DNA of 42,039 nt. Origin: Alphaproteobacteria bacterium. GTDB taxonomy: Bacteria; Pseudomonadota; Alphaproteobacteria; RF32; CAG-239. Below are positions 5,076-41,595 of this stretch, piece after piece. The notes below the pieces were generated by a model. That model was not told the origin of the DNA. It did no database searches and was given only the letters and a program-made list of their open reading frames with translations. Numbering within the stretch: the first letter of the stretch is position 1; every line of letters starts with the position of its first letter. Location of the stretch: NCBI GenBank assembly GCA_017471705.1, contig JAFUSH010000009.1:1-42039 (forward strand), read 5' to 3'. A program made the position numbers and the translations under genes.

Positions 5076-6158
5076 TTATAATATCAGCTTTTCATATTCT
5101 TTAGCTAAGCTATAAGTGCGGTTTTTACGAGCCTTATTGACAATGCTCAAAAATCCTTCTTGTACCCATTTGTTCAAGATTAGTCTTGCTGATTGTGATG
5201 ACAAATTTAAATATTCACCTGCTTGTATGGATGTTATTTCCTCAAATTCGGTAAATAATTCCAGAATTTTGCGTTGTTTAATATCTAATTTACGTAGTAT
5301 TGGCGAAATATCAGCTTTACCGGTTATATCTTTTTCTTTGGCTTTAATTTCAATGTTTGTAAATGCATTGGCTACACCTCTGATGAAATATTCAAGCCAA
5401 GATGTTAAATCTGCTTCATTTCTGCCAAAGTAGTAATTATGATGCGGATGGGTTGCCAGTGCTTTATAATAGTCACCTAAGTTTTTAGCATAATATTCTT
5501 CCAAGGAATAAATACCTTTTAAGCCATAACCGAATTTACGCATAATATAACTGGTAATTAAACGAGCGGTACGACCATTTCCATCAAAATATGGGTGAAT
5601 AGTTACAAATTGATAATGAAATAAACCTGCAACAATCGGTGTTGGCAATGTGTTAATATTATCTTGTACCCATTTAACTAAATCATCCATCATTATTGGG
5701 ACATCTTTTGTTTCTGGTGGCAAGTAAACAAGTGCACCGTCTGAGCTGTCATAAATTGCGTTTTGAGCATCTCGATAAGGAATATTTTTTTTACTTCCTT
5801 CAATAATACTATGGATTTTCTGAATAAAGCTTAACGAAAATGGTGAATGACTATCTAAATATTTCTCCATATAGTTTATAGCTTCGTAGTAGGATTTGAC
5901 TTCCTTTTCATCATGTCCTTGGTAATTCTTAGCAGACTTATTAGAAGTATATAGAGCATTTTCAACTTGTTTTAATGTCAAACGATTACCTTCAATTTGA
6001 GTTGAATAGTGTGTTTGCGATATTTTAGCTGTTTTGTGTAATGAAGACAGTAAAACAGGTGACAATGGTTGATCATCAAAAGAATTTTTAACGGTTTCTA
6101 TCTTGGTTAAATCTTTCAGTATTTCTTTGGTAATTGTATATTTAGGTGTCCAATTCAT
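5076..6158 (-). CDS. Fic-family AMPylase, class II, with C-terminal winged helix
   Basis: A 360-residue Fic protein. The core motif HPYFDGNGRTAR (His188 to Arg199) is complete, including the catalytic His and the phosphate-binding GNGR, so it should transfer AMP (or a related group) from nucleotide to a protein hydroxyl. Residues 52-57 read STQIEG, the SxxxE(G/N) inhibitory helix placed N-terminal to the Fic core, which defines class II self-inhibited enzymes. The N-terminus matches the Fic-N/DUF4172 type, and residues about 285-355 form a predicted winged helix (IKQRKILELF, then SIQAGEYLNLS). Targets are unknown. It has its own promoter. A frameshifted remnant of residues about 95-145 is found at 7855-7999. 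Confidence 0.93.
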   Translation of the reverse strand: MNWTPKYTITKEILKDLTKIETVKNSFDDQPLSPVLLSSLHKTAKISQTHYSTQIEGNRLTLKQVENALYTSNKSAKNYQGHDEKEVKSYYEAINYMEKYLDSHSPFSLSFIQKIHSIIEGSKKNIPYRDAQNAIYDSSDGALVYLPPETKDVPIMMDDLVKWVQDNINTLPTPIVAGLFHYQFVTIHPYFDGNGRTARLITSYIMRKFGYGLKGIYSLEEYYAKNLGDYYKALATHPHHNYYFGRNEADLTSWLEYFIRGVANAFTNIEIKAKEKDITGKADISPILRKLDIKQRKILELFTEFEEITSIQAGEYLNLSSQSARLILNKWVQEGFLSIVNKARKNRTYSLAKEYEKLIL

Positions 6159-6184
6159 AATTTTTTCCTTTTATTTTATGATTA

Positions 6185-6213
6185 TTCTATGATTAAATTA
6201 TGAATAAATCAAT
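6185..6213 (-). promoter_or_regulatory. promoter of the class II fic gene
   Basis: On the minus strand, TTGATT (6208-6213) and TAGAAT (6185-6190) are separated by 17 bases and lie 27 bases from the ATG at 6158. An AAGGA-type ribosome-binding site follows. The remainder of the gap up to R3 is AT-rich, with nothing else that I recognise. Confidence 0.65.
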
Positions 6214-6342
6214 AATAAAATAGGATTAACTAACGATTTTTTGATTTTTCCATTAAGTGATTTTAAAGTCAAATAATCGGATTTTTGATATTTAAGCAAG
6301 GAGAAGTTGCAAGTTGTTTGTTTCTTGTTGGTCGTCTTGGTC

Positions 6343-6403
6343 TAAAAGCAGCTCCAACTTATATTCTAGCTACTTGTAATCATCGTAATTTTCAGTCCGA
6401 TAA
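6343..6403. repeat. intergenic repeat R3
   Basis: The longest copy. Bases 6343-6399 match R1 (3450-3506) at 48 of 57 positions, and 6368-6403 match R2 at 32 of 36. It ends in AGTCCGATAA, 21 bases from the stop of the second Fic gene. Confidence 0.8.
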
Positions 6404-6424
6404 TCGCACGCGGATATACATAAG

Positions 6425-7036
6425 TTACGAGAGTAACTTATGTATATCATATTCGTCATAACCTTCATAATAATAACTGATATCAATGCCTTTCATAAAT
6501 ACTTCACGCTCATTAATTTTATCTGTTAAGGCATTTTTCAAAAGGTGTTTAATTTCAATATCTTTTATCGGGCTTCGTTCCATTGCCGATAAATAATCTT
6601 CCTTATCAATTTTATTCCAATCCACAACCCTTTTCAGTTCTTTTTTGAATATTAAATCAAGCCAGATTCTAGTTGCTCGTCCGTTACCTTCTCTGAATGG
6701 ATGTGCAATATTCATCTCCACATATTTTTCAACAATTTCATCAAAAGTTGATTGCGGCATTTTCTCTATATTTTTTAATGATTGCTCTAAATACATAACC
6801 GGAGCAAAACGGAAATTGCCTTTAGATATGTTTACATCGCGTATAATACCTGCAAAGTCATAAATATCTTCAAACAAAAATTTATGTATTTGCTGCAATC
6901 CCTCAACCGTACCAGCCTTTATTGTATCAATTTTACCGCTATCAAAAAGTTTTATAGCTTTTTCTTTGCTTATTTTTTCCTCTGTTTTATTGAGTTCTAT
7001 CTGATTTGCGATATTTAATTTGTTTGTTAAGACCAT
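6425..7036 (-). CDS. Fic-family AMPylase, class III
   Basis: A compact 203-residue Fic protein. The active-site motif [12 protein letters not shown] (His112 to Arg123) is complete, and a flap region [19 protein letters not shown] precedes it, as in cell-filamentation/NmFic-like proteins. Near the C-terminus SYYYEG (Ser187 to Gly192) fits the SxxxE(G/N) inhibitory helix, here placed after the core, which is the class III arrangement. Such enzymes modify host or self proteins such as gyrase and topoisomerase IV in some species; the target here is unknown. No antitoxin-like small gene lies beside it, consistent with self-inhibition. It follows the HD gene by 90 bases. Confidence 0.92.
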
Positions 7037-7126: not shown

Positions 7127-7735
7127 CTAGTTGAAAAAATCATAGATATTATGACCTATTTTATTATCAAAATACTTTTTTATTTCATTACTGTCTATTA
7201 AAATATCATCAACATTTACATTTCCGTGACGTTCAATAAATTCTGCCGCACGCTGCTCTAATGTAACAAAACCATTTTTATTTGCAAGGTTATCACATAA
7301 TTGAATTAAATAATCCTCATCAACGGGTTTATTATTTTCAATAAAATCAACACTAAATTGGTAATCATCTTTTTTACCATAGAATAAGTTTTTACACTTT
7401 TCATACTGCGGTAATTTACTCCACGGAAACATATGAACTAAACAAATTCGTGCGACATCTTTATCTTGATTTATTAATTTTTCATACCCTAATATACCGT
7501 GAAAACGCTGAACTCTGTCTTCTTCTGTTCTGCAAATATCATGCAACAATCCCATAATATAAACTTTGTCCGGATTCATAGTGCTTATCTCTGATGCAAT
7601 CATTTTTGCAATTTGAGCTGTTCCGTACACGTGATTTTCGTAAGTGTACCAAGTTTTAGGATCCCTTCCCAAAGCTATTTCATTTTGCTTTAATTCATTA
7701 ATTAAATTTTGTGCTTTTGAAATTGATATTGTCAT
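7127..7735 (-). CDS. HD-domain phosphohydrolase
   Basis: A 202-residue protein with a metal-binding HD signature: His35 (ENHVYGTAQIA), His65-Asp66 (GLLHDICRT), His101 (CLVHMFPW) and Asp148 (QLCDNLAN). HD proteins hydrolyse phosphate esters, often of nucleotides or cyclic nucleotides. The closest-looking relatives are small stand-alone HDIG-type proteins; the substrate cannot be told. It sits at the start of the minus-strand block under a promoter shared in sequence with the lipoprotein gene. The motifs are complete and the frame intact. Confidence 0.82.
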   Translation of the reverse strand: MTISISKAQNLINELKQNEIALGRDPKTWYTYENHVYGTAQIAKMIASEISTMNPDKVYIMGLLHDICRTEEDRVQRFHGILGYEKLINQDKDVARICLVHMFPWSKLPQYEKCKNLFYGKKDDYQFSVDFIENNKPVDEDYLIQLCDNLANKNGFVTLEQRAAEFIERHGNVNVDDILIDSNEIKKYFDNKIGHNIYDFFN

Positions 7736-8236: not shown

Positions 8237-8905
8237 ATGTACAAGTTAATTATCTGGGATTTTGACGGAGTTATAGCCGATAGCGAAAAACTATGGATTT
8301 CCGTCTGGTTGGAAACTTTGCAAAAAGAAAAAAATCTCTGTCTTACCGAGGAAGAAACTTTTAAATTAATGGTCGGAATTGCCGACAGAGAAAAGAAAAT
8401 AAATTTAGAAAAATATTTTCCCAATTTAACTTTAGATGATGATTTTATGAAAAAAGTTGAAGAAGGATACATATATAATGAAATACATTGTATGGAGCTG
8501 TTTGAAGGCGTTCAGGATATTATGCAAGATAAACGATTTGAACATTGTATCGCTACCGGAGCAGACAGAAAACAGCACACCAGAAAAACGAGCAAATTTG
8601 AATGGCTCAAAGAGTATGAGAGTTTCACGGTCGATATGGTCAAACAAGGCAAGCCGGCGCCGGATATATTTCTATTAGCCGCAAAGACCAAGGGATATAA
8701 ACCGGAAAATTGCATTGTTATCGGTGACAGTTTGAATGATTTTAAGGCAGCCAACGCCGCCGGAATAAAAAGTATTGCCTTTGTCGGGGCGGAAGGAAAT
8801 AATACAGAAGAATATCGCCGAAAATGTATTGATACCGGAGTTATCGCTGTTTGTGCAACAATGAAAGAAATAAAGCAAGTTATAAATAATTTGCAATCAG
8901 CATAA
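8237..8905 (+). CDS. HAD-family phosphatase (copy 2)
   Basis: A 222-residue paralogue of the protein at 1696-2412, with all four HAD motifs intact: DFDGVIADS (Asp8, Asp10), the Thr in ATGAD, KQGKPAPD and GDSLNDFKAA. The cap region between motif I and motif II and the strand after ATGA differ most (YIYNEIHCMELFEG versus EKYKGMHFMQPIDG), so substrate preference may have shifted. The two copies lie in the same orientation on either side of the minus-strand block. Its G+C and codon use are somewhat richer than copy 1 (for example GCCGGCGCC-type codons). It is followed at 52 bases by an HD-domain gene that it may be transcribed with. Confidence 0.9.
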   Translation: MYKLIIWDFDGVIADSEKLWISVWLETLQKEKNLCLTEEETFKLMVGIADREKKINLEKYFPNLTLDDDFMKKVEEGYIYNEIHCMELFEGVQDIMQDKRFEHCIATGADRKQHTRKTSKFEWLKEYESFTVDMVKQGKPAPDIFLLAAKTKGYKPENCIVIGDSLNDFKAANAAGIKSIAFVGAEGNNTEEYRRKCIDTGVIAVCATMKEIKQVINNLQSA

Positions 8906-8957: not shown

Positions 8958-9398
8958 ATGATTACCGAAAACAGATGGATGCACATTTTAGGAGTAGCAC
9001 GTAAAGCCAAAGAAATTGCCGCAAAATTTAAGCCCAATGATGATAAATTCATTGAAGATATGTTTTTATTGGGAATAATGCACGATTTGGGATATGAATT
9101 TATGGAAAGTAATACTTCTCACGCCGCCGTAGGGGGAGAAATTTTAAAACGCGGCGGATATAAATATTGGCAGGAAGTAGCTATGCACGGTGATGAAACC
9201 GTCGAAAATATGACAGACCAATTATTTATATTAAATTGTGCCGATATGATGACAGGTCCAAACGGGGAAAATTTTACTTTTGATGAAAGACTGAAGGAAA
9301 TCGGCAATCGTTTCGGTAAAGATTCGGCACCTTATCAAAAATGTATAATTGAAGTACGAAAATTAAAGAATGATACACGATATTCAAAAATATTATAA
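8958..9398 (+). CDS. small HD-domain phosphohydrolase
   Basis: A 146-residue HD protein with His9 (RWMHILGVA), His42-Asp43 (GIMHDLGYEF), His55, His77 and Asp96 (LNCADMMTG), a complete metal-ligand set. It belongs to the small stand-alone HD phosphohydrolases that act on nucleotide-type phosphates; the substrate is unknown. An AAAGGA ribosome-binding site supports the ATG. It is unrelated in detail to the HD gene at 7127-7735. The operon with HAD copy 2 ends at the hairpin directly behind it. Confidence 0.85.
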   Translation: MITENRWMHILGVARKAKEIAAKFKPNDDKFIEDMFLLGIMHDLGYEFMESNTSHAAVGGEILKRGGYKYWQEVAMHGDETVENMTDQLFILNCADMMTGPNGENFTFDERLKEIGNRFGKDSAPYQKCIIEVRKLKNDTRYSKIL

Positions 9399-17394: not shown

Positions 17395-18684
17395 TTATTT
17401 ATCTTTTTTTATACAAAATAAAATAATGAATATGCTGGGTAAACTCATTAAACCTGATATTATAAAAAATATTATCCAACCGGAATTCGGAAAAATATTT
17501 TCCGCATATTGATAAACTACTCCGCTGGTTGCTGAAAATATATCTCTGGAAAGACTCATAACCGATGATAATAAAGCATATTGCGTTGCCGTATATAATT
17601 TATTACACAATGAAGAAATATATGCTACAAATGCCGTTGTAGCCAGTCCGGATGATAAATATTCCAAAGCTACTACAATCATAAATAAAGGCATATTATG
17701 TCCGTAATATGCTTGTACGGAAAATAACATTGTTGTCATACACTGCGTAAAGCCAAATAATAACAAACTTTTGCGCATACCTATTTTTAATACTATTATT
17801 CCACCCAATAATCCGCCTATTATAGTCATTATTATACTGTAAATTTTAGTTACAAAGGCAATTTCTTCCTTAGTAAATCCCATATCATCATAAAACGGAT
17901 TACTCATAGGGCCAAAATATGAATCACTTAATCTGTATGTAAAAATAAACGCTAAAATCCAAAACCAATTATTATTTTTAAGAAAAGAAACAAAAGGATT
18001 TATAAGTGAATTATTAAAAAAATGTCTTAAAATTTTTTTATCCCAGTCTAATTTTTTGTATTTATAATCTACTGCTTCTTTTGAAAAAATAACAGCACTT
18101 AAACCAATAAAAACACCTAAAGACATTATTATATAAACACTTGGCCACGAAATTTTTGAGGCTAAATAAATAGCTCCGGCTCCGGAAAATATAAGTCCTA
18201 ATCTGTATCCCAATACAAAAATTGCCACACCGGAAGAAAGTTTTTCCGGTTCATCATTAAAAGATTCAACTCTGTATGCATCTAATATAATATCTTGAGT
18301 TGCTGATAAAAAACTGGTTATAAAAGCAAATATCGCCAATAAATATAAATTTTGTTGAGGATTTACCGTTGACATTAAAAATATAAATATTCCCAATAAA
18401 ATTTGCGTTACTAACGCCCAAGATCTGCGTCTGCCAATTTTATATAAAAAAGGTACTTTAACATTATCAACTATCGGTGACCATAACCATTTTAAAGAAT
18501 AAGGTATTTTTACCAATGACATTGCACCTATAGAAGCATAAGCAATTCCATAATCTTTTAATAAAAAACTCAATGTTCCGAAAACCAATGCCAGCGGAAA
18601 ACCGCTCGAAAATCCGAATAAAAGCATACTTATCATACGCTTATTAAAATAAATGTCATATATGTTTTTTATATATTTAATCAT
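17395..18684 (-). CDS. AmpG-like MFS permease
   Basis: A 429-residue inner-membrane protein with about 12 hydrophobic helices. The N-terminus matches AmpG muropeptide permeases: LLFGFSSGFPLAL, then PYSLKWLWSPIVDN and GRRRSW, the motif between the first helices. AmpG imports anhydromuropeptides for murein recycling, which would fit the MltA lytic transglycosylase encoded in this window, though acetyl-CoA transporter-like relatives share this pattern. The ATG at 18684 overlaps the dnaQ stop by eight bases (ATGATTAA). The longer frame would invade dnaQ by 80 bases and is unlikely. Confidence 0.8.
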   Translation of the reverse strand: MIKYIKNIYDIYFNKRMISMLLFGFSSGFPLALVFGTLSFLLKDYGIAYASIGAMSLVKIPYSLKWLWSPIVDNVKVPFLYKIGRRRSWALVTQILLGIFIFLMSTVNPQQNLYLLAIFAFITSFLSATQDIILDAYRVESFNDEPEKLSSGVAIFVLGYRLGLIFSGAGAIYLASKISWPSVYIIMSLGVFIGLSAVIFSKEAVDYKYKKLDWDKKILRHFFNNSLINPFVSFLKNNNWFWILAFIFTYRLSDSYFGPMSNPFYDDMGFTKEEIAFVTKIYSIIMTIIGGLLGGIIVLKIGMRKSLLLFGFTQCMTTMLFSVQAYYGHNMPLFMIVVALEYLSSGLATTAFVAYISSLCNKLYTATQYALLSSVMSLSRDIFSATSGVVYQYAENIFPNSGWIIFFIISGLMSLPSIFIILFCIKKDK

Positions 18685-19381
18685 TATTTTCGGATGTATC
18701 GCTGAGCCATAAAGAATTTTTAATATTATTTTGTAAAAAAGAAATATGCTCTTCATTTTCTTTTTCAGATAAATAAAAATGTCTTTCTTTTATATTAACT
18801 TTATTAATTTTTATATTATCATTATTAATATGCTCTGTTTTTGCACTTATAAAATTTATACTCGGTTCATCGCCTCCCATAAGTTGCAAATACACCTCAG
18901 CCAAAAGCTGGGCATCGAGTAATGCACCGTGTAAAGTTCTTGATGAATTATCTATATTGAAACGTTTGCATAAGGCATCAAGATTGTTATGAGCTCCGGG
19001 AAATTGTTTTCTGGCTATAGCTAAGGTATCTATAACTCTGTCCCAATCATAAGTTGCCAATCCGCATTTTCTAAGTTCCATATTGATAAATTTTATATCA
19101 AATTCAGCATTATGAGCTACCAAAATACCGTCATCACCAACAAAATCTATCCACTTTTGAGCTATTTCTCTAAATACAGGTTTATCACTTAAAAATTCAT
19201 TGGTAATACCGTGTACATCAACGGCATCTTGAGACACATCACGCTCCGGATTTATATATTCGTGAAATTGCTTTCCGGTAGGAATATGATTAATTAATTC
19301 CAAAGCCCCTATTTCTATTATTCTATCACCGCCATCGGCATATAATCCTGTTGTTTCAGTATCAAAACATATTTCTCTCAT
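18677..19381 (-). CDS. dnaQ: DNA polymerase III epsilon subunit (3'-5' exonuclease)
   Basis: A 234-residue DEDDh exonuclease that proofreads replication. The metal ligands are Asp7 and Glu9 (FDTETTG), Asp95 (HNAEFDIKF) and the catalytic pair His151 and Asp156 (HGALLDAQLL). Its C-terminal 60 residues are divergent and presumably hold the polymerase-binding segment. It overlaps coaE as TAATG. The coaE-dnaQ pair adjoining the origin is typical of Alphaproteobacteria. Confidence 0.96.
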   Translation of the reverse strand: MREICFDTETTGLYADGGDRIIEIGALELINHIPTGKQFHEYINPERDVSQDAVDVHGITNEFLSDKPVFREIAQKWIDFVGDDGILVAHNAEFDIKFINMELRKCGLATYDWDRVIDTLAIARKQFPGAHNNLDALCKRFNIDNSSRTLHGALLDAQLLAEVYLQLMGGDEPSINFISAKTEHINNDNIKINKVNIKERHFYLSEKENEEHISFLQNNIKNSLWLSDTSENND

Positions 19382-19962
19382 TACATTATCTCTTGTAAAA
19401 ATTTTATTATCTGAACTTTATTAATACCATCAGGAAGAGCAGTATTTATAATATAATCAGCCGCTGAATATTTTATTAAATTATCCGTTTGAATAGCTAT
19501 AATTTTTTTAACATCCTCTTTTTTTATATTATCACGTTTCATAACTCTTTGTATTTGAATTTCTTTTTCAACATCAGCAACTATTATATAATCACAATAC
19601 TTATCCCATTTATTTTCCAATAACAAAGCAGCATCTAAAAATAAAAAATCATTATTTTGAGCATATTTATTAATAATTTTTTTTAATTTACGTTTTAAAA
19701 ACGGATGAATAATACTCTCTAAAATTTTAAGTTGCTTATTATCATTAAAAACAATATTTCTAAGTTCTCTTTTATTAAAAATTCCTTCAGCGTCAAAAGT
19801 TGTCGGAAAATATTTTTTTATAACCAGTAAAAAATCTTTCTTTTTATATAAATTACGTACCCAATGGTCAGGATTATATACACTGTATCCCATATTTTTC
19901 AAAATATTTGCCAAATATGTTTTTCCACACCCAATAGATCCGGTAATTCCTATAATTTTCAT
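19381..19962 (-). CDS. coaE: dephospho-CoA kinase
   Basis: A 193-residue enzyme for the last step of coenzyme A synthesis, phosphorylating the 3'-hydroxyl of dephospho-CoA. The P-loop GITGSIGCGKT opens the protein and the CoaE hallmarks DPxW-like NPDHWVR, IHPFLK and DAALLLENKW follow. The ATG at 19962, with AAAGG upstream, is chosen; the longer frame adds 13 non-conserved residues. It is first in the long minus-strand operon and faces the AT-rich intergenic region. Confidence 0.95.
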   Translation of the reverse strand: MKIIGITGSIGCGKTYLANILKNMGYSVYNPDHWVRNLYKKKDFLLVIKKYFPTTFDAEGIFNKRELRNIVFNDNKQLKILESIIHPFLKRKLKKIINKYAQNNDFLFLDAALLLENKWDKYCDYIIVADVEKEIQIQRVMKRDNIKKEDVKKIIAIQTDNLIKYSAADYIINTALPDGINKVQIIKFLQEIM

Positions 19963-20140
19963 TTTTTTACCTTTATTCAAAAAGTTATAATTTTTATACA
20001 CATACTACCATAAAATTGTGCATAAAATGCCGCTACTTGAAATTTTTAACAAAGTATATACATAATGTAAAAAAATTAAGATAACTTATCAACATGTTGA
20101 TATAAATATCACAGCTGTGTTAATAATGTGGAATACTTTA

Positions 20141-20156
20141 TTAACCATTTATTAAC
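20141..20156 (+). promoter_or_regulatory. CtrA-type binding site
   Basis: TTAACC at 20141 and TTAAC at 20152 form TTAA-N7-TTAAC exactly, the full CtrA consensus. In Caulobacter CtrA represses the origin from such sites. The AT-rich context raises the chance of a random match, so this rests on location. Confidence 0.4.
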
Positions 20157-20311
20157 TTATTGATTTATTAATAAATAATTAATATTTAATTTTATTATTT
20201 TTATGTGAAAATATGTTGATAAAATTTAATTAACATATTATACAGCCATAAACAATAATAAATAAAATTATTTAAAAAAAATAATATGAAAAATGTTTTG
20301 TGCAAAAAATA

Positions 20312-20340
20312 TTGACAATATTAAACTTTTTTTATATAAG
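20312..20340 (+). promoter_or_regulatory. rho promoter
   Basis: TTGACA (20312-20317), 17 bases, TATAAG (20335-20340), about 60 bases before the rho ATG. The leader contains a hairpin (20349-20366) followed by a U-rich run. Confidence 0.7.
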
Positions 20341-20348
20341 CAAGCTGA

Positions 20349-20366
20349 CAGACATTTATATGTTTG
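20349..20366 (+). promoter_or_regulatory. hairpin in the rho leader, possible attenuator
   Basis: CAGACAT (20349-20355) and ATGTTTG (20360-20366) pair over seven bases with one wobble, with a four-base loop and CTTTTCTTT behind. rho is autoregulated in other bacteria. The hairpin is weak and AT-rich. Confidence 0.35.
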
Positions 20367-20399
20367 CTTTTCTTTATTAACAATCAATAAAAGGTTACT

Positions 20400-21653
20400 A
20401 TGCATTTAAAAGATTTAAAGGGTAAATCTCCTACCGAGTTATTGACTCAGGCTGAAGATTTAGGTGTAGAAGACGCATCATCTATGCGTGTTCAGGATTT
20501 AATTTTTGCAATTATGAAAAAACTTGCCGAAGATGATAAGGTTATTATTGGCGACGGTGTTATAGAAGTTATGCAGGACGGTTTCGGATTTTTGCGTTCT
20601 TCAAAATCAAATTATCTTGCCAGTGCAGATGATATATATGTTTCTCCGGCGCAGGTGAAAAAATTCGGATTAAGAACTGGTGATAGCGTTGAGGGTGAAA
20701 TAAGAGCTCCTAAAGATAATGAACGTTATTTTGCTTTAACAAAAATAAATACCATAAATTTTGATGATCCTGAAAAGTCTAAATTAAGAGTAAATTTCGA
20801 TAATTTAACTCCTCTTTATCCTACCGAAAAACTTAATTTTGATATTATATGCGGTGATAAAGATTATACCACAAGAGTAATTGATTTAATATCTCCGCAG
20901 GGCAAAGGTCAGCGCGGTTTGATTGTTGCTCCTCCTCGTACAGGTAAAACAGTTATGCTGCAAAATATAGCTCACGCAATTGCCGTTAATCATCCTGAAG
21001 TATATTTAATGGTATTGCTTATTGATGAACGTCCGGAAGAAGTTACTGATATGACACGTTCAGTAAAAGGTGAAGTTATATCTTCAACATTTGATGAACC
21101 GGCAACCCGTCACGTTCAGGTTGCGGAAATGTGTATAGAAAAAGCTAAACGTTTGGTGGAAAATAAAAAAGATGTAGTTATTTTACTTGATTCCATAACT
21201 CGTCTAGGAAGAGCTTATAACGCAGTAGTTCCTTCATCTGGTAAAGTATTAACAGGAGGTGTCGATGCTAATGCTCTGCAGCGTCCTAAACGTTTATTGG
21301 GTGCTGCCCGTAATGTTGAAGAAGGTGGTTCTTTAACTATTATAGCTACAGCCCTTATTGATACAGGTTCGCGTATGGATGAAGTTATTTTTGAAGAATT
21401 TAAAGGTACCGGTAACTCTGAAATTATATTGGATAGAAAATTAACCGATAAGCGTTTATTCCCGACAATTGATATTACCCGTTCAGGTACTCGTAAGGAA
21501 GAATTATTGGTTGATAAAGCAACCCTTACAAAAATGTGGGTATTACGCCGCGTTTTAATGCAAATGGGTATGACAGACGGTATGGAATTTTTGTTGGATA
21601 AATTAAGAAATTCAAAAAATAACGATGACTTTTTCCAAAATATGAATTCTTAA
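20400..21653 (+). CDS. rho: transcription termination factor Rho
   Basis: A 417-residue hexameric RNA helicase that ends transcripts. The N-terminal helix bundle and cold-shock-like RNA-binding domain ([15 protein letters not shown], then DDIYVS) are followed by the ATPase core: Walker A APPRTGKT, Walker [17 protein letters not shown], the Q-loop region [12 protein letters not shown] and the R-loop region [13 protein letters not shown]. Length is normal. AAAGG lies six bases before the ATG. It points away from the proposed origin and ends at a strong hairpin terminator. Confidence 0.98.
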
Positions 21654-26491: not shown

Positions 26492-29400
26492 TTAGAACTT
26501 ATACCCTAAATTAAGCAGATAATAAGTTTTTTTCTTCTGTTCAAGCGGAACATTAGCTGAAACCGCAGCTGAAAACTTTTTGTAATCATATACAGTCTTT
26601 AAGCTTATTAATCCGAAGTTACGTTGGAAACGATTGCTTATAATATCGTAATGTCCGTACATATCGCTTATTGTAGCACGTGATGTATATTTATCACCTA
26701 ATTCGTGGAAATATTTACCTCCGGCAATAACAGATAAAGAATGTTTATCATTGAACTCAAATTTCTTTTTGATATCCATACCCAAAGAAATAAGAGACGA
26801 TAAAGTATTGTTACTCTTTATTTTCAATCCGTCTTTATTTTCTTTTGTATCGTCGGCATAAAGACCGGTGAAATTAAATCCGGCATTAGGCTCAACAGCA
26901 AAATATGTCAAATCAATACTATGACGTAATCCGGAATCAAAACCGTAGTAAAATTCTTTGGTATTTGCTTTATATGCCTTATTCACGGCATTACGACGAT
27001 AATGACCGCGGGAAAAACCGGCTTTAGGTTTGAATAGAACTGAAACAACATCGTTATTGAATATTATAGGAATACCTGCTTCAAATAAATTATTGTATCG
27101 CGAAGAATCGTCATCAAAATCACTCTCGGAGCGGGTAACCATCAAAGATAATCCGCCGCGTAATTTATTGTTTAGCAATTTATCGGTATATCCGTATACC
27201 GAAATAACTTTATCTTTATATCCGCTGACTTCGTGCTTTGAATTAACTTCATTTTTATAAGTTATAACATTAACTTTACTTCTGTTAACTTCTTTCAAAT
27301 CGGTCAATAAATCATCATTAAGCTCGGTATTAACCGTTCTTTCAATATCTAAACTTTGTTTTGTTAAATCAGGTATAATATTAAATCCGAGTTCGCGATT
27401 GAGGTAATCATCAAACTGCGCTTTATTACCGGCAGATTTAAGAATATCGAAAATTGCTTCACCTTTTTGGTTTTGATAATTATTGCTTAAATATTGAGCA
27501 ATGCGAGAATTTTCAACTTTATCTTCAAATGATGACATAGTCATAACAACATTTAAATTCCCGTTTTCATTGCTTATTAAAGAAGCATCAAACAAATAAG
27601 ATTGCGAAACAATATTTAATCCGTTATCGGTTCCTACAAAGGCATCTTCGTTAACATAAACAGTTTCAAAACCTCCTTCAACCAAACTGTTATCAGCCAT
27701 AACAGTTCCGCTGAAAGATTCTGCTTCATAAGTACCGTTTTTTCCGATTGAAGCTACACTGCCGGCTTCATCGGAACCGAAATCAACATCTCCGGTCAGG
27801 CTTATTTGTCCGAGGTTTAACAGGCGGATATTTCTTACCAAAGAAGGGTCTGACAACGAAATCAGAGAAGAACCGATAGATGATGTTCCCGATACGTACC
27901 CTCCCCAATCAATTTCACCGTTTTTGCAATGCTGTCCGCAAGAACCGCCGTAAACCACTGCATCTTCACCCATTGCCCCCGGATTAACGGTTGTTCCGTC
28001 AGTATATTTTGTACCGATTTGATCACCTTGAGTTACTTCTTCTGTATTAAGTTGATAATTTTTTACGACATAAATTGCGTATCCGCTGGCAACATTTATA
28101 TTACCTGTATTGGTAATAATTACCGTGGAACCGACATAAGGAACTTCAACATAAATACCGTTTCCGGTTCCGGTGCTGACGGATATTGTACCGCTGTTTG
28201 TAATAGTTCCCGGATTTGAAGTATAAATACCGTGTCCGTTATAAATTCTGATAACACCGCTGTTATTTACGTTTGTAGCTCCTAAAATAGCGGCAGTTGC
28301 CGATCCGGTAACTTCTATTGTACCGCTGTTATTAACGGTGGTTACTCCATTGATTGCGGCAACTCCGGAAGCTATTGAAATAGTACTGTCAGTATTGTTT
28401 GTGAGGGTTGTTCCTCCATCAACGGCATAATCTGTTCCGATTATTTGACCGGAGTTGGTAATAGTAGAAGCCCCTCTTATGGCGGTGCCGGATGAAGTTT
28501 TTATGATACCTCCGGAACCGTTTGAAACATCACGCACTCCGCTGACGGCTGTGCCGCTTTCGACACTGACGGTTCCCCCTGTATTACTTAAGGATAAAGC
28601 ACCGTCAACGGCAGTTCCGCTTCCGTTAACTATAATGTCTGAGGTATTTGTAACCGAGCCTGTGGCAATAACCGCTGTACCGCTTCCAATTTCAATGTTT
28701 CCGCTGTTGTTCAAAGAAGAACCTCTTACGGCAGTTCCGCTTCCGCTGACAACTATATTTCCCCCGTTTGTTACGGAATTTTTGGCATTAACGGCTGTGC
28801 CGCTTCCTAAGTTTATATTACCGCTATTTGTGACGGTTGAAGCATTATTAATGGCATATCCTGAGCCTGATACGGTAATGTTACCGCTGTTTATCACCGG
28901 TGTATTATTGGTCGCGTAGATTGCCGAACCGGACACAATATTAATAGTTGCCACGGCACTGTTATTTATGGTTCCGGTGCCTATAGAATATATTCCGGTT
29001 GCGGTGGAACCGGTCATATTAATAAAACCGTTATTCGTAATACTGCCGATAGCTGTATAAATACCAACGCTTCCGGCATTTTTAATCAATATATTGCCGC
29101 CGTTAACCAAAGAAGTTGCAGATTGTCCGTAAATACCGTAACCACCGCCGTAAATGTAAATATTACCGTTATTTTGAATAGTTCCGTCAAGAGAATAAAT
29201 ACCATAATTTCCGTTATTTCCGGTGACGGTTGAAGAGCCGATAACTATAGATGAATTGACATCGGTAGAAATAGAAGCGGAAGCAGCTCTTATACCGTAA
29301 CTGTTTTCGGCAACGGTTATATTGATTTTCTTGGAATTTGATATGGTGGAATCCCCGTTGGAACGTATGCCTGTATTATTCTTATTATAAAGATTAATAT

Positions 29401-32400
29401 TTCCGTTATTAATTATTTGCTCTGAAGCATTTCCGTCAATACCGTAGCTGTTTGTGGCATAAATATTTATGAGGGCATTATTTGATATCTTATTGGCATT
29501 TTCCGCATAAATACCGTAAGCTCCGGCAGAAGAAATGGTATCGTTGTTACCAATAGAAATCGTACCGCCGCTGTTATTGGTAATCTCAGCATTTCCGGTG
29601 GAATAAATACCATAACTTCCGATAGGTGATGATAAGGATATGGAAGCGTTGTTTTCAATGGAATTTCCGTTGGAGGCAATACCCTTGCTGTTACTGTGGT
29701 ATAATGTTAGCATTCCGTTGTTAACTATATTATTGCCGCCGGTAACGGCAGTACCCGACGTATATGTGGTAATCGGAGCATAATTGGTAATACTGTTTGC
29801 ATTTAAAGCATAAATACCGTAATCGTTTCCAATATCACTTAAAGTTGAGCCTATAATGATTTCTCCGGAAGCGTTGTTGGTTATATCTACGGTTCCGGTA
29901 GAGTAAATACCATAGTTATTTCCTGCTTGAGTAATTCTGATAACACCGCTGTTTTCGACGGATGTTCCGTTTGAAGATATACCTTTACTGCCGTTTTGAT
30001 ATAGGTTTAATGACGCCGTATTGGTGATTGCATCTCCGCCGGTAATGGCGCTACCGCTTGCATATATATGAATTGCCGAATTATTCTTTATGCTTTTGGC
30101 ATACGGAGCATAAATACCGTTTCCGTTTGAAGCGGTGGAAGTTGATTTACCCAAAGTAATAATACCGCCGGAAAGATTTTCTATTTCAGCTTCGCCGGTA
30201 GCATAGATACCATAACCGTTGTTAGCATTATTTAAGGTTATGAGGTTTTGATTTCTGATGATGCCCGAACCGGTGGTGCTGATACCTTTACCACCATCTT
30301 CTTTAATTTGAATTTGTCCGCGGTTAGTAATTAAGCTGACTTCTCCACCGGATATGGCGGTGCTGTTTTTACCATTCATTGTTATGGAGTTATTATTGGT
30401 TATGGAATTTCCGCTTTCGGCATAAATTGCGTAACTGGAATTATTGTAAATAATAAATATTCCATCGTTAACTACCGAATTTATGGCTTTGGCAAAAACA
30501 CCGTAGCTGTCATATCCTTCTGCCCCCGATGTGCCTACTGTTATTTTTCCGCTGTTATTAAAAGTTAACCCGTCAACGGTTGTTTCATCAACGGATGCCA
30601 CAGTACTTCTAACTGCTTCAACATTAGTTCCCTTTACGGTTATTTCTCCGTTATTATTGACGGTAGCTGATGCCGAAGCAAAAATTGCCGATGAATAGCC
30701 GTTGAAAGAATATATGTTTTTATTGTTAATGAATGTGGAATTTCCGCTCAGAGAAACCGCGTGACTTTCACCGTTTTCAACGCTGTACAGGTTGATGGTG
30801 CCGTTATTTGTGAGAGTTCCCGCGGATTCTTCTTCTGAGGAATCTACGAAAACCATACCGTTACTGTTGCTTACGCTTTGTTCGGAATTACCGACATTGA
30901 TGGTTGCGCCGGATTCATTAAATACTTCCGTGTTTTTTGATGCTTCCAAAGCATTATTGTTATCGTAGTTAATATTTATATCCTGCTTGTTTATGATTTT
31001 TCCGCCTTCGGCATAAATAGCCGTGCCGTTTTCATTATTAAGATTTATGATTCCGTCATTGGTTACTTCTTTATTGTTTATAGAATAAATGGCATAACCT
31101 TTTTGAGCGGCATCATTGTAAAGATTTATGGTTCCTTTATTTGATATTTCACTCTCGGTTTCGTTATAAATACCGTAACTTTCGGAAACAGGATTAGCGG
31201 CCGTACCGACATTAATAACACCGGCAGAATCGTTGGTAATTTCGTGTTTTCCGCTACCGATAGTATAAATTCCGGCAGCATCATCTCCGTAAACATTTAA
31301 GGTATTTTTGTTGCTTATGGTAACATCAGAGCCTTTGCTGTATATTGCCGCACCGGCTTCTTTTGTATATAAGTCTATTGTTCCGTTATTTTCAATATAT
31401 GCCGTTCCTTCTTCTCCGATATAAATACCGAAACTGTTTTCAATTTCCGAGCCGTTCCCGCCAACGGAAATTACACCGTCCGCAGAGTTGATAATACGAG
31501 TTTTTCCTGTACTTCCCGTGCTGTATATGGCAATATTGTTATCACCTTTCATCGTAATATTTTTATTGTTTCTTGTATTGCTGTAACCGGAAGAATACAT
31601 ACCCAAAGAATACTCATCTTTTACCGTTATATCACCGTTATTTATCATACTTGCGTTTTTCTCCGAGGCGTTGGCCATAGCAGCCGAAAAGCGAGAAGCT
31701 GTGTTGATGATGTTATTATTGGTTATATAAGCATTATTTATGGCGCCTTCAGCTAAATACATACCGACGGTATTTGTAGCATTACTGTGTAAACTGTCGG
31801 TTATGTTTATTTCTCCTTCATTAAAAGCTTTTCCTTGTGTTTCACCGCTTTCATCGGTCTCAACCGACATTGCTGATACAAAAGATGAACCATCCATATT
31901 TATAACTGAATTTTTATCGTTATAAATTTTTTCGGTTGTTGAAGATGAAAATACCGTTTGTTCATCTAACACCGAGCGAGACTGTGTGCTGATAATCGAA
32001 TTACCGATGGAAAGCGTGTAATTTGCGAAAGGATTATATTTTTCACCGTCTGATGCGGCTTCTCCCGTGGAGTTGGCATAATAGTTTATAGTATTGGAGT
32101 TATGCGCTTCACTGTATGCACCGCCGAAAACATAGGAATTGGTAGCACTTTCGAAAACGTTAATAATACCGTTATTGTAGATAGTTGTTCCGCCGGAAAA
32201 ATCATTTTGCATTGCGATGGAATCGTGAGAATAAATGTTTATGGTTCCCGTATTTTCCAAAGTAGCCTCTTTAGTTTGTCCGTAACCGTAGATGGCAATA
32301 TTTTTTTGATATTGGGTTGTGGTTTCCGGTTTACCCAAAGTAATAATACCGCTGTTTTTTAAATTTCCGCCGTTAAAAGAAGCAATACCGAAACTGTTAC

Positions 32401-34168
32401 TGGCTTGGATTGCAATATTTCCCGAATTGATTAAATTTTGATTTAAATCGGCATAGAGCCCTGATACACTGCCGGAACCTTCAACCGAAACCATTCCGTA
32501 ATTTTTGCGTTGGTTTCCCGCAGATGTTTTTATGTTAATATTTCCGGAGTTGGAAAGATTACCGCCGTGAATTGATTGCATACCGGCGGCCACATCTATG
32601 GAACTGCTTCCCGTAGAATATTCTTCCAAATTAAGATTTATATTGTTCAAATTATAGGCTGAAGTTCTGGCATCTGCCCGCATAGCGACAATTCCGCCGG
32701 TTCCTTTACGCAGCGACAGTTCGGAAGAAGGAGTATAGTTTCCGGTATAACTGATGTTAATTTCACCGGAGTTTCGCAGAACAACATTTTCGGCACGATT
32801 TATATTCTTAGAACCGTTCATAAATCCATCGTCTAAAAAGCTTCCCATTCCAATCATCGAAACTTTAATATCTTTATCTGAAGCTCCGGCATCTCCAGCG
32901 CTTAAATAAATTTTTCCGCCGGATTCGTTTAATAAATTAATGGTGTCTTTATTTAAATCTTTGCCGGCATTTACAATCATCGCTTCCATACCGACTAAAG
33001 TTCCGGATGCTGCGGATTCTTTAACAGATTCTTCTTCGCCTTGTCCGGCGTTAGGGTCTAAAAGTCCGCCTATATCTTGATTTTGCGTTTCGGATTCGGA
33101 GGAAGCTTTAATGGCTGATCCTTTAATATCTCCGAAATTTTGTAAAACAGATTTACTGTCGGCATACATACCGATGAGAGTATGAGAATCGTTATATCCC
33201 GAAAAGTTTAATGAAATACCGTTATTTGATTGAACTCCGCTCGGATTATTTATAATACCTTGACCGTAATTGGTTGCCATAGAACCTTCGCTTGCAACCA
33301 TACCTATACTGGCGTTATAACTGTCGACGTTTATATATCCGAAATTGTTGATTTGCGCTTTTTTGGTTGCAGTCATACCAATCGTTCCGGCACCCGCTTG
33401 CAAAACGGTATCAACGGTGTTGGTATAATTTCCGCTGTTTTGAGCTTTAAGAGCAACATCTAAATAGTCAGTATTTTTCAAAATGTTTGAATTAAAATTT
33501 ATGTTGGCTATTTCTTCAGTTTTGGAATTTGTAATGTTTATAAAAGAAGAGTTTTCGGCAGAAGTTTCCGTGATTGATTTGTAAATTGTTCCTTTTGTTC
33601 CGGCATAAGATCCCAAACTGTTATAGTCTTCAGTATCGCCGCCACTGTTACCATCGTGACCGCCACCGCCGCCGCCACCGCCGCCGAGAGCGAGAGCTAA
33701 AGCTCCTCCCACTAAAGCAGCACCGCCTATCCACCACCAAATTTTCGGAGATACGCTGTAATTTTCTTTTCCGATATAACCGTATGCGGCTCGCGGTGTT
33801 GATGTAACCGGAACGGCGCGTGATGAATTTATAAAATTATCATAATCTTCAATATTTTGCGTGCAGGGATGGCGAGGATTTGCACCTGCCGCACGAAAAG
33901 AATTGTATGTATAAGAATCGTGTCTGCGCGCAGCAACACAAAGACCGGTATCGCCGTTAGAGTTCATTACATCAATATTAAGCCCTCGATTAATGGATGA
34001 ACGTAAGGCTTCTACTCTGCCGTTTTGCGCCAAAGCATACATTTCTTCAAAGGATTCCGGTGTTAAACGGTATCCGTAGGCATTGGCAATCCGCGGAAGA
34101 TTCGCCAAAGCAAAAGAAAAAATAGTTGTTATACAAACAGTTTTTTTCAAAAGCGCACTTTTAAGCAT
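26492..34168 (-). CDS. giant autotransporter with ankyrin-like N-terminus
   Basis: A 2558-residue type V secreted surface protein. Residues 1-30 are a signal peptide (cleavage after ANA). Residues about 40-100 look like one or two ankyrin repeats (GRVEALRSSINRGLNIDV, then GDTGLCVAARRH). Residues about 145-180 hold a WWW-hydrophobic segment and a nine-Gly run. The passenger (about 190-2250) is rich in Asn, Gly and Ser with endless NNSGxI/GIYA turns, as in beta-helices. A 100-residue super-repeat occurs at least three times, and 20-22-residue rungs run from about 1745 to 1985. The last 280 residues are the autotransporter beta-barrel ending LLNLGYKF. No protease or adhesin motif is seen; adhesion is inferred. 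Confidence 0.92.
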   Translation of the reverse strand: MLKSALLKKTVCITTIFSFALANLPRIANAYGYRLTPESFEEMYALAQNGRVEALRSSINRGLNIDVMNSNGDTGLCVAARRHDSYTYNSFRAAGANPRHPCTQNIEDYDNFINSSRAVPVTSTPRAAYGYIGKENYSVSPKIWWWIGGAALVGGALALALGGGGGGGGGHDGNSGGDTEDYNSLGSYAGTKGTIYKSITETSAENSSFINITNSKTEEIANINFNSNILKNTDYLDVALKAQNSGNYTNTVDTVLQAGAGTIGMTATKKAQINNFGYINVDSYNASIGMVASEGSMATNYGQGIINNPSGVQSNNGISLNFSGYNDSHTLIGMYADSKSVLQNFGDIKGSAIKASSESETQNQDIGGLLDPNAGQGEEESVKESAASGTLVGMEAMIVNAGKDLNKDTINLLNESGGKIYLSAGDAGASDKDIKVSMIGMGSFLDDGFMNGSKNINRAENVVLRNSGEINISYTGNYTPSSELSLRKGTGGIVAMRADARTSAYNLNNINLNLEEYSTGSSSIDVAAGMQSIHGGNLSNSGNINIKTSAGNQRKNYGMVSVEGSGSVSGLYADLNQNLINSGNIAIQASNSFGIASFNGGNLKNSGIITLGKPETTTQYQKNIAIYGYGQTKEATLENTGTINIYSHDSIAMQNDFSGGTTIYNNGIINVFESATNSYVFGGAYSEAHNSNTINYYANSTGEAASDGEKYNPFANYTLSIGNSIISTQSRSVLDEQTVFSSSTTEKIYNDKNSVINMDGSSFVSAMSVETDESGETQGKAFNEGEINITDSLHSNATNTVGMYLAEGAINNAYITNNNIINTASRFSAAMANASEKNASMINNGDITVKDEYSLGMYSSGYSNTRNNKNITMKGDNNIAIYSTGSTGKTRIINSADGVISVGGNGSEIENSFGIYIGEEGTAYIENNGTIDLYTKEAGAAIYSKGSDVTISNKNTLNVYGDDAAGIYTIGSGKHEITNDSAGVINVGTAANPVSESYGIYNETESEISNKGTINLYNDAAQKGYAIYSINNKEVTNDGIINLNNENGTAIYAEGGKIINKQDININYDNNNALEASKNTEVFNESGATINVGNSEQSVSNSNGMVFVDSSEEESAGTLTNNGTINLYSVENGESHAVSLSGNSTFINNKNIYSFNGYSSAIFASASATVNNNGEITVKGTNVEAVRSTVASVDETTVDGLTFNNSGKITVGTSGAEGYDSYGVFAKAINSVVNDGIFIIYNNSSYAIYAESGNSITNNNSITMNGKNSTAISGGEVSLITNRGQIQIKEDGGKGISTTGSGIIRNQNLITLNNANNGYGIYATGEAEIENLSGGIITLGKSTSTASNGNGIYAPYAKSIKNNSAIHIYASGSAITGGDAITNTASLNLYQNGSKGISSNGTSVENSGVIRITQAGNNYGIYSTGTVDITNNASGEIIIGSTLSDIGNDYGIYALNANSITNYAPITTYTSGTAVTGGNNIVNNGMLTLYHSNSKGIASNGNSIENNASISLSSPIGSYGIYSTGNAEITNNSGGTISIGNNDTISSAGAYGIYAENANKISNNALINIYATNSYGIDGNASEQIINNGNINLYNKNNTGIRSNGDSTISNSKKINITVAENSYGIRAASASISTDVNSSIVIGSSTVTGNNGNYGIYSLDGTIQNNGNIYIYGGGYGIYGQSATSLVNGGNILIKNAGSVGIYTAIGSITNNGFINMTGSTATGIYSIGTGTINNSAVATINIVSGSAIYATNNTPVINSGNITVSGSGYAINNASTVTNSGNINLGSGTAVNAKNSVTNGGNIVVSGSGTAVRGSSLNNSGNIEIGSGTAVIATGSVTNTSDIIVNGSGTAVDGALSLSNTGGTVSVESGTAVSGVRDVSNGSGGIIKTSSGTAIRGASTITNSGQIIGTDYAVDGGTTLTNNTDSTISIASGVAAINGVTTVNNSGTIEVTGSATAAILGATNVNNSGVIRIYNGHGIYTSNPGTITNSGTISVSTGTGNGIYVEVPYVGSTVIITNTGNINVASGYAIYVVKNYQLNTEEVTQGDQIGTKYTDGTTVNPGAMGEDAVVYGGSCGQHCKNGEIDWGGYVSGTSSIGSSLISLSDPSLVRNIRLLNLGQISLTGDVDFGSDEAGSVASIGKNGTYEAESFSGTVMADNSLVEGGFETVYVNEDAFVGTDNGLNIVSQSYLFDASLISNENGNLNVVMTMSSFEDKVENSRIAQYLSNNYQNQKGEAIFDILKSAGNKAQFDDYLNRELGFNIIPDLTKQSLDIERTVNTELNDDLLTDLKEVNRSKVNVITYKNEVNSKHEVSGYKDKVISVYGYTDKLLNNKLRGGLSLMVTRSESDFDDDSSRYNNLFEAGIPIIFNNDVVSVLFKPKAGFSRGHYRRNAVNKAYKANTKEFYYGFDSGLRHSIDLTYFAVEPNAGFNFTGLYADDTKENKDGLKIKSNNTLSSLISLGMDIKKKFEFNDKHSLSVIAGGKYFHELGDKYTSRATISDMYGHYDIISNRFQRNFGLISLKTVYDYKKFSAAVSANVPLEQKKKTYYLLNLGYKF
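28340..28930. repeat. tandem 60-66-bp modules in the passenger
   Basis: About nine degenerate units of 20-22 codons, each with an SGTAV-like core followed by NSGxI (for example GSGTAV, VSGSGTAV, ESGTAV). The DNA repeats the phrase meaning GTAV in different codons, so the units are old but still alignable. Confidence 0.7.
29300..30230. repeat. 300-bp super-repeats in the passenger
   Basis: YGIYATG, YGIYSTG and YGIYSTG recur at about 30220, 29920 and 29620, exactly 100 codons apart, with a more diverged fourth (YGIRAAS) near 29300. Each unit contains, in order, a GIY-TG turn, an ITN-GGxI strand, a second GIYA turn, an IYASGxA turn and a KGI-SNG turn. Confidence 0.75.
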
Positions 34169-40833: not shown

Positions 40834-41595
40834 ATGTACAACAAATATAAAGAGCCGGAAACATTTTGGGAAAAAGTAGAGGAGTTTTACAAATATAATC
40901 AGAAACGCTTGTCCAGACTCTTTAAATTTGCAGCAGTTTGCCTTGTATTTATAATAGGTTTTAAAGTTGTTAACGTAGCAACATATAACTATAAGCTGAA
41001 TAAGGACGTAAAAGCCGCGGTTGCAGAAATAACGGCGATGATAAGAAATATAAGGACGCTTTATGCCACTAACGGTCAGGAAGTAAGCAATATTTCCGAA
41101 TTGTTAATTCAATCCGGCGCGGTTTCCAAATCATCGGTAGGTGATGTGGGTATAAAGAATATTTTGGGTGGAAAGATTGTAATAGTATCCAAGATTCGGA
41201 AAAACAAAAAGCCCAGTGAAAGCGAAAAATCTTCTTTTGTATTAGCTTATCAAGGTTTGCCGCACGGAGTTTGTGTAAAATTAGCCGGTTTGGATTGGGG
41301 AAATTCCAAGAGCGGCTTAATGGCTGAAGCCATTGGGGTTGTTGATGAAGAAGGCAACGATTCGGCACTTACCGATATTGAGAATTATGACGGTAAAGAA
41401 GTTGCGGTTGTAGGTAAAGACGGAAAGGTTCGTTATACCGAAATTAAACAGCGTAAGATGTACACTGTGGCTAAGCCTGATGATAACCTCACGCAATATC
41501 CGATACCTGAAAATGCGGCTATTTTAGGTTGTGCTTGCGGTAAATTAAATGTTTGTTCGTTTGTGTTACGTTATTCCATTTTTCCGGAACGTTAA
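40834..41595 (+). CDS. type IVb pilin-like (PilS-like) membrane protein
   Basis: A 253-residue protein. A hydrophilic N-terminus of about 28 residues precedes one membrane helix (29-48). The segment ITAMIRNIRTLYATNGQEVS, then ELLIQSGAVS, then IKNILGGKIVI is the pattern of type IVb/PilS pilin globular domains. No clear prepilin peptidase site (Gly-Phe with Glu at +5) is visible, so it may be a minor or membrane-retained pilin-like protein. Four Cys lie in the C-terminal half. A perfect AGGAGG overlaps the secA stop, so it should be strongly translated from the secA transcript. Confidence 0.65.
   Translation: MYNKYKEPETFWEKVEEFYKYNQKRLSRLFKFAAVCLVFIIGFKVVNVATYNYKLNKDVKAAVAEITAMIRNIRTLYATNGQEVSNISELLIQSGAVSKSSVGDVGIKNILGGKIVIVSKIRKNKKPSESEKSSFVLAYQGLPHGVCVKLAGLDWGNSKSGLMAEAIGVVDEEGNDSALTDIENYDGKEVAVVGKDGKVRYTEIKQRKMYTVAKPDDNLTQYPIPENAAILGCACGKLNVCSFVLRYSIFPER

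Follow-up and report, generated by a model that had tools for sequence, protein, structure and literature searches.

Where does chromosome replication begin in an alphaproteobacterial genome in which neither of the textbook origin markers, hemE and COG1806, is found? The window analysed here, 42,039 bp, is one whole contig (C59) of a genome of 1.82 Mb in 89 contigs, and an earlier note on its sequence had placed the chromosome origin between coaE and rho, at 20002..20399. Our findings support that reading: a conserved array of DnaA boxes, extreme AT content, parS sites near by in many relatives and a switch of GC skew in several of them together suggest that the coaE-rho gap, 19963-20399, is the single replication origin (oriC) of the chromosome, a prediction to which we assign a probability of roughly 0.92. 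The flanking genes, the gap and the sites discussed below are as follows.

18677..19381, minus strand: dnaQ, DNA polymerase III epsilon (Pfam, NCBIfam)
19381..19962, minus strand: coaE, dephospho-CoA kinase, left flank of the gap (Pfam, NCBIfam; start from relatives)
19963..20399, no strand: predicted replication origin, the whole coaE-rho intergenic region, 437 bp, 17.8% GC (boxes and AT content; skew and parS in relatives)
19994..20002, plus strand: exact DnaA box TTATACACA, coaE-proximal, first of a convergent pair (exact in 11 of 12 genus gaps)
20017..20025, minus strand: exact DnaA box TTATGCACA (the plus strand reads TGTGCATAA), second of the convergent pair (exact box there in 12 of 12 genus gaps)
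20085..20102, no strand: back-to-back near-consensus DnaA boxes TTATCAACA/TGTTGATA (position kept across the genus)
20141..20156, plus strand: predicted CtrA-type site TTAACCATTTATTAAC, TTAA-N7-TTAAC (sequence; spacing-specific enrichment in family gaps)
20147..20206, no strand: predicted DNA unwinding element, the least stable 60 bp of the window (nearest-neighbour energy, sampled every 5 bp)
20168..20182, no strand: second predicted TTAA-N7-TTAA site (sequence)
20299..20307, minus strand: near-consensus DnaA box on the rho side, TTTTGCACA, with a single mismatch (conserved in most cases, just 5' of the rho -35)
20312..20339, plus strand: rho promoter-like TTGACA ... TATATAA (by eye; absent from the promoter-scan list)
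20400..21653, plus strand: rho, transcription terminator, right flank of the gap (Pfam, NCBIfam)

Most of what had been claimed for the locus itself holds. The two genes diverge, coaE on the minus and rho on the plus strand, and both identities come from Pfam and NCBIfam. Because the alignment with relatives begins near residue 13 of the long coaE frame, we moved the coaE start to 19962 from 20001, and the gap is therefore 19963-20399; the earlier interval thus named the right gap, but with its left edge at 20002 instead of 19963 it just missed the best evidence, the exact box at 19994-20002 and with it the convergent pair. The back-to-back box-like 9-mers do form a 16-bp palindrome, TATCAACATGTTGATA at 20087-20102, which consists of TTATCAACA (from 20086) and its overlapping mirror, and the TTAA-N7-TTAAC site is present, accompanied by a second TTAA-N7-TTAA. 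The extreme AT-richness is likewise real: the gap has 17.8% GC against 34.5% for the window, and the lowest-GC 400-bp stretch of the window falls within it. An IHF site counts among the features of hemE/COG1806-type origins; by raw count the gap holds three perfect matches to an IHF consensus, two of which are the two strands of the palindrome. A sigma-70 scan gave no signal (8 matches, 6.4 expected from shuffles), an Rfam scan of the window gave no match and no tRNA was found in it, and a DnaA-trio was looked for by eye only, with none claimed. Between the box pair and the palindrome, at 20037-20076, lies an AT-rich element, TTGAAATTTTTA-CAAA-TATATACATA-TGTAAAAA, that is strongly conserved in the 12 genus gaps and matches no recognised site.

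Three features by which an oriC is recognised can be sought here: a cluster of DnaA boxes beyond chance in an intergenic region, an AT-rich unwinding element beside the boxes, and parS close by. The window's own gap holds two exact boxes where 0.03 are expected (200 dinucleotide shuffles; row L003). A search for Rho gave a match in 72 of 74 genomes, a figure that takes in the window's genome as well as weak matches to other ATPases; among 30 family rho loci, again including our own, coaE lies upstream in 26, the contig ends first in 3, and one genome (G007) has something else upstream. The 26 family coaE-rho gaps together contain 67 exact boxes, compared with 1.59 expected from shuffles; at least two exact boxes occur in 24 of them, and 19 carry a convergent pair at 23-24 bp, an arrangement that shuffles produce at 0.00. 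Only one exact box is found in the gaps of G035, whose two-box spot lies elsewhere, and of L028. The gaps share descent and are therefore not independent trials; their conservation itself is the evidence. On seven contigs, with frames of at least 100 aa counted as genes, 200 of 204 other intergenic regions of at least 200 bp have no exact box, four have one and none has two, and the gap is the densest exact-box cluster on six of the seven. The methylation motif GANTC (CcrM type) occurs 38 times in the 26 family gaps, where shuffles give 12.5, but most of these sites belong to other genera than that of the window, whose own gap has none, and the motif was therefore set aside as evidence. As to unwinding, the gap is the lowest-GC 400 bp on six of the seven contigs, and by sequence and calculated stability an AT-rich element lies by the boxes, its place varying among relatives: the least stable 60 bp starts anywhere from 71 to 482 across the 26 gaps.

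As the window's own genome is in 89 contigs, we tested GC skew in relatives, computing cumulative skew on contigs of eight of them. Relative to the rho start, the minimum falls 48 bp before it in G017 (336 kb contig, 72 kb masked), at +34 bp in G034 (222 kb), at +2.3 kb in G033 (271 kb) and at +4.2 kb in G037 (392 kb), whereas it lies off rho in G016 (+18.6 kb), G035 (+59 kb, at the contig end) and G041 (+98 kb), and in G007, where rho and coaE are apart, it is 12.1 kb from the coaE start. The minimum is thus within 50 bp of rho in two relatives, within 5 kb in four, and misses in four. A least-squares single change point lies less than 5 kb from rho in five of seven relatives (G033, G034, G035, G037 and G041) and misses it in G017 (-23.8 kb) and G016 (+51 kb). 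Within the 42-kb window alone, which does not settle the origin, the skew minimum (at 38.1 kb) and the change point both lie to the right of the gap, by 17.7 kb and 4.6 kb respectively. The earlier note had named a skew minimum elsewhere as evidence against its proposal, and on this point the record is divided, with four relatives placing the minimum by rho and the other four, like the window alone, placing it elsewhere.

Origins usually have parS close by, and exact parS-type sites are present in 124 of 152 family genomes. Among the matches listed, 29 genomes, our own included, have both rho and parS placed: in 18 the nearest parS lies 2.8-31.5 kb from the rho start on the same contig, which provides the third of the features above, and in 11, including the window's genome, parS is found only on contigs other than that of rho, these contigs often being short. 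Some genomes have additional parS matches elsewhere; in the window's own genome the exact sites are on contig C7, inside a gidA-looking gene. Gene order adds partial support for the origin position. In comparisons of the window with G017, G034, G035 and G037, all 33 reciprocal best matches that change gap side also change strand, as expected for inversions centred on an origin, whereas with G041 only one of ten does so, and pooling all 21 contig pairs gives 95 of 152. Neighbouring genes move together, and the side swaps are therefore few and non-independent events; clean against four relatives and mixed overall, their polarity was dropped as a general proof. Gene-strand bias proved a weak marker, with 33-75% of coding bases pointing away from the gap, per arm, on the seven contigs.

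Two other placements of the origin have to be weighed against this evidence. The gap might be a promoter region common to coaE and rho, with DnaA acting there only as a regulator of their transcription and the origin lying elsewhere; the genes do diverge and a promoter-like TTGACA/TATATAA precedes rho. We consider this very improbable, given the two relatives with a skew minimum within 50 bp of rho, the AT-richness of the gap on six of seven contigs, and the situation in G007: there rho and coaE are 3.9 kb apart, one exact box and a palindrome-like stretch (by eye) remain upstream of coaE after the separation, and no exact box is found within 440 bp upstream of rho, which argues that the array is not merely a control region of rho. 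An origin next to dnaA-dnaN, the arrangement of many bacteria, or else at the parS/gidA cluster would accord with the general proximity of parS to origins, with the presence of dnaA on the rho contig in G034, G035 and G037 (29-57 kb away), and with G016, whose skew minimum is nearer its first parS (+21.0 kb) than rho. DnaA was found in 12 of the 13 genomes searched, but no exact DnaA box occurs in the 8 kb around the window genome's own dnaA-dnaN, and in G034 the skew minimum is at rho, with dnaA 57 kb and parS 9 kb away, so that we find this placement scarcely credible.

The gene order of the class supports the coaE-rho gap as the origin position. Of a longer list of rho loci we took the best 80, of which 64 have at least 6 kb upstream; within these 64, coaE(-) is upstream of rho in 54, with hemE(+) between the two in 41, a hemJ-like gene only in 10 and neither in 3. 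A hemE or hemJ-like gene thus stands between coaE and rho in 51 of the 64, and maf in 49. The usual order of the genes that were placed, COG1806 not among them, is dnaQ-coaE-aroE-maf-gap-hemE-(hemH)-hemJ-rho-trmE-gidA-parA (the labels gidA, trmE, parA, recF and hemJ-like, like the gene names given below for G042 and G063, come from reading the translations by eye and not from a family search). G062 shows this order with its boxes in place: maf is followed by exact boxes, four in the gap and one overlapping the maf start, and then by hemE-hemH-hemJ-rho. In G042, of the same taxonomic order as the window, four exact boxes lie between rho and coaE, and in G063, of another family, two lie between rho and dnaQ; an uncultured alphaproteobacterium (CALXRR010000001) has the same coaE-rho arrangement as the family.

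Within the family, the usual neighbours of this position were not found or lie elsewhere. With the Caulobacter control found in both searches, hemE (PF01208) was detected in none of 13 family genomes, the window's own included, nor in G042, and COG1806 (PF03618) was detected in none of the same 13, or of 17 genomes in all, G062 included. We found maf in all 14 genomes searched, away from rho. The proposal of a trimmed neighbourhood therefore gains support from the contrast between this family and the hem genes retained in the class-wide loci, and the more specific claim that hemE, maf and aroE are absent is correct for the window, where none of the three was recognised among the genes scanned, and, as far as the search shows, for hemE genome-wide, but not for maf, which is present on another contig. 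Since hemE and COG1806 were found neither here nor in 12 other family members, and most of the class loci compared keep hem genes between coaE and rho, the origin likely stayed while nearby genes went, and the coaE-rho gap seems a clear case of an origin kept while adjacent genes were lost. In Bartonella florencae (L082), maf is followed by rho with no hemE match between them, and 384 bp ahead of rho stands an exact DnaA box, possibly a parallel loss of hemE beside the origin.

A further question is whether the origin is under the control of CtrA. With both strands of the 26 gaps counted, TTAA-Nn-TTAA occurs 86 times at n=7, whereas the remaining spacings between 2 and 13 yield 4-26 each (43 against 2-13 per strand), and summed genus means give 21.1 at N7 against 1.3-5.8. 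At least one TTAA-N7-TTAA is present in 20 of the 26 gaps and in 10 of 13 genera. Its density is 3.57 per kb in the gaps against 0.14 in other intergenic regions, where no peak appears (12 at n=7, 11-20 at other spacings), nor is there an N7 peak on the contigs outside the gap; the half-site TTAACCAT behaves similarly, at 0.58 against 0.06 per kb. The window's genome encodes GcrA and CtrA, the latter in L215, which passes the NCBIfam model NF045991 with 400.9 bits (cut-off 350); L207, the best Trans_reg_C match, was set aside as PhoB-like by eye. Given the enrichment at exactly N7 and the encoded regulator, CtrA may therefore gate the origin, and by analogy with Caulobacter we put at about even odds that phosphorylated CtrA binds the predicted sites at 20141 and 20168 and blocks initiation. 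A serious alternative, whose chances we rate a little under one half, is that these sites are 11-bp phased repeats of the unwinding element, or overlapping weak DnaA boxes (TTATTAACA). Eleven base pairs correspond roughly to one turn of the helix, the gaps are rich in TTAAC of any kind (13.0 per kb, compared with 3.3, an excess to which TTATTAACA/TTATCAACA boxes contribute), the 20 lowest-GC other regions show a slight excess (6 at N7, 1-4 at other spacings), and six of the 26 gaps have no site. The sharpness of the N7 peak, its confinement to the gap, the half-site enrichment and the presence of CtrA and GcrA argue for CtrA sites.

In the excerpted text of PMC1914354, Cori of Caulobacter crescentus and the Rickettsia prowazekii origin resemble the gap in being intergenic, about 400 bp long, AT-rich for the genome and provided with DnaA and CtrA-type sites, and the Cori-like layout, in which coaE stands opposite the hem genes and rho, recurs in the same 51 of 64 class-wide loci (among the best 80). 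Cori lies between hemE and COG1806 (PMC1914354, in excerpt), whereas neither gene is found in this genome, and the boxes of the gap are exact TTATNCACA, in contrast to the weaker G- and W-boxes of Cori (PMC4468827, in excerpt). Of the features that define origins of the hemE/COG1806 type (PMC1914354), the gap has AT content above that of the genome (82.2% against 65.5%, the window standing in for the genome) and CtrA-type sites, as predicted (two in the window, and in 20 of 26 gaps), but not the position beside hemE or COG1806, and it is therefore set apart from that type; as judged from its sequence, it is very likely an ordinary DnaA-type oriC whose gene setting is new. The origins of Wolbachia, Ehrlichia and Anaplasma (hemE-COG1253), like the gap, were predicted from binding sites and AT content and have one flank changed; they keep hemE, whereas here neither classical marker is found (PMC1914354, in excerpt). 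According to excerpts of the respective sources, the origins of Caulobacter and possibly Rickettsia are described as having CtrA sites, which are said to be absent from others (PMC4468827), and predicted sites are reported for Wolbachia (PMC1914354). Sinorhizobium meliloti and Brucella are alphaproteobacteria that encode CtrA, like the present genome; in contrast to the predicted sites of this family, the S. meliloti origin is described as lacking CtrA motifs and not bound by CtrA (PMC4433202, in excerpt), and Brucella CtrA is reported not to bind the origin (PMC2877005, in excerpt). Among the titles and abstract openings surveyed, we found no report of a coaE-rho origin.

If the coaE-rho gap is the origin, DnaA would bind the two exact convergent boxes next to coaE and extend from there over the palindromic boxes and the one near rho, the AT-rich DNA around 20147-20206 would melt, and a helicase would presumably load, with two forks departing in opposite directions. 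The predicted melting stretch adjoins or contains the TTAA-N7-TTAA sites at 20141 and 20168, and phosphorylated CtrA bound to these sites would block initiation. Over evolutionary time, hemE and COG1806 would have disappeared and maf would have been relocated, with the origin staying where it was, flanked by the rho side and the coaE side. We tentatively propose, at slightly short of even odds for the scenario as a whole, that in this hemE-less family the origin outlived its neighbourhood, with hemE and COG1806 gone, maf moved off, rho and coaE closed in, and coaE no longer adjacent in a more distant relative, and that the DnaA array was kept with CtrA sites on the melting stretch; if true, this would add another lineage whose origin is gated by a two-component regulator of the cell cycle.

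These findings assign a probable origin to a family of little-known alphaproteobacteria without detected hemE or COG1806. As both textbook markers were not found, a rule based on them would miss this origin, and the coaE-rho pair could be used as a substitute marker, for example in estimating growth rates from read depth. Control of the origin by CtrA, described for Caulobacter and absent in Sinorhizobium, might be older or more widespread than thought, a question that the sites predicted here make testable.

Several observations concern the genomes more broadly. Seven genomes of the genus (G005, G009, G012, G013, G020, G024 and G025) have neither a full rho nor a coaE match, and of the 12 genomes searched for coaE the remaining five gave one; bins seem to lose the origin-side contig as a whole, and one guess is that a coverage effect of the origin lies behind it. 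The window also contains a 2558-aa open frame with no Pfam match (26492-34168, minus strand) and two adjacent Fic-domain genes (5076-7036, minus strand) with NERD and Bro-N genes close by. Two HAD hydrolases (1696-2412 and 8237-8905) and two HD-domain proteins (7127-7735 and 8958-9398) all lie inside 8 kb and look like a duplicated pair. Pilin-like open reading frames are found beside ctrA (L215:1193-1804), near dnaN (L218:7257-7838), near rho (L225:4685-5311) and at the right end of the window (40834-41595); the L215 and window copies are PilS/Bundlin by Pfam, the L218 and L225 copies are linked to them only by a similar-looking start, and together they are perhaps a multicopy pseudopilin family.
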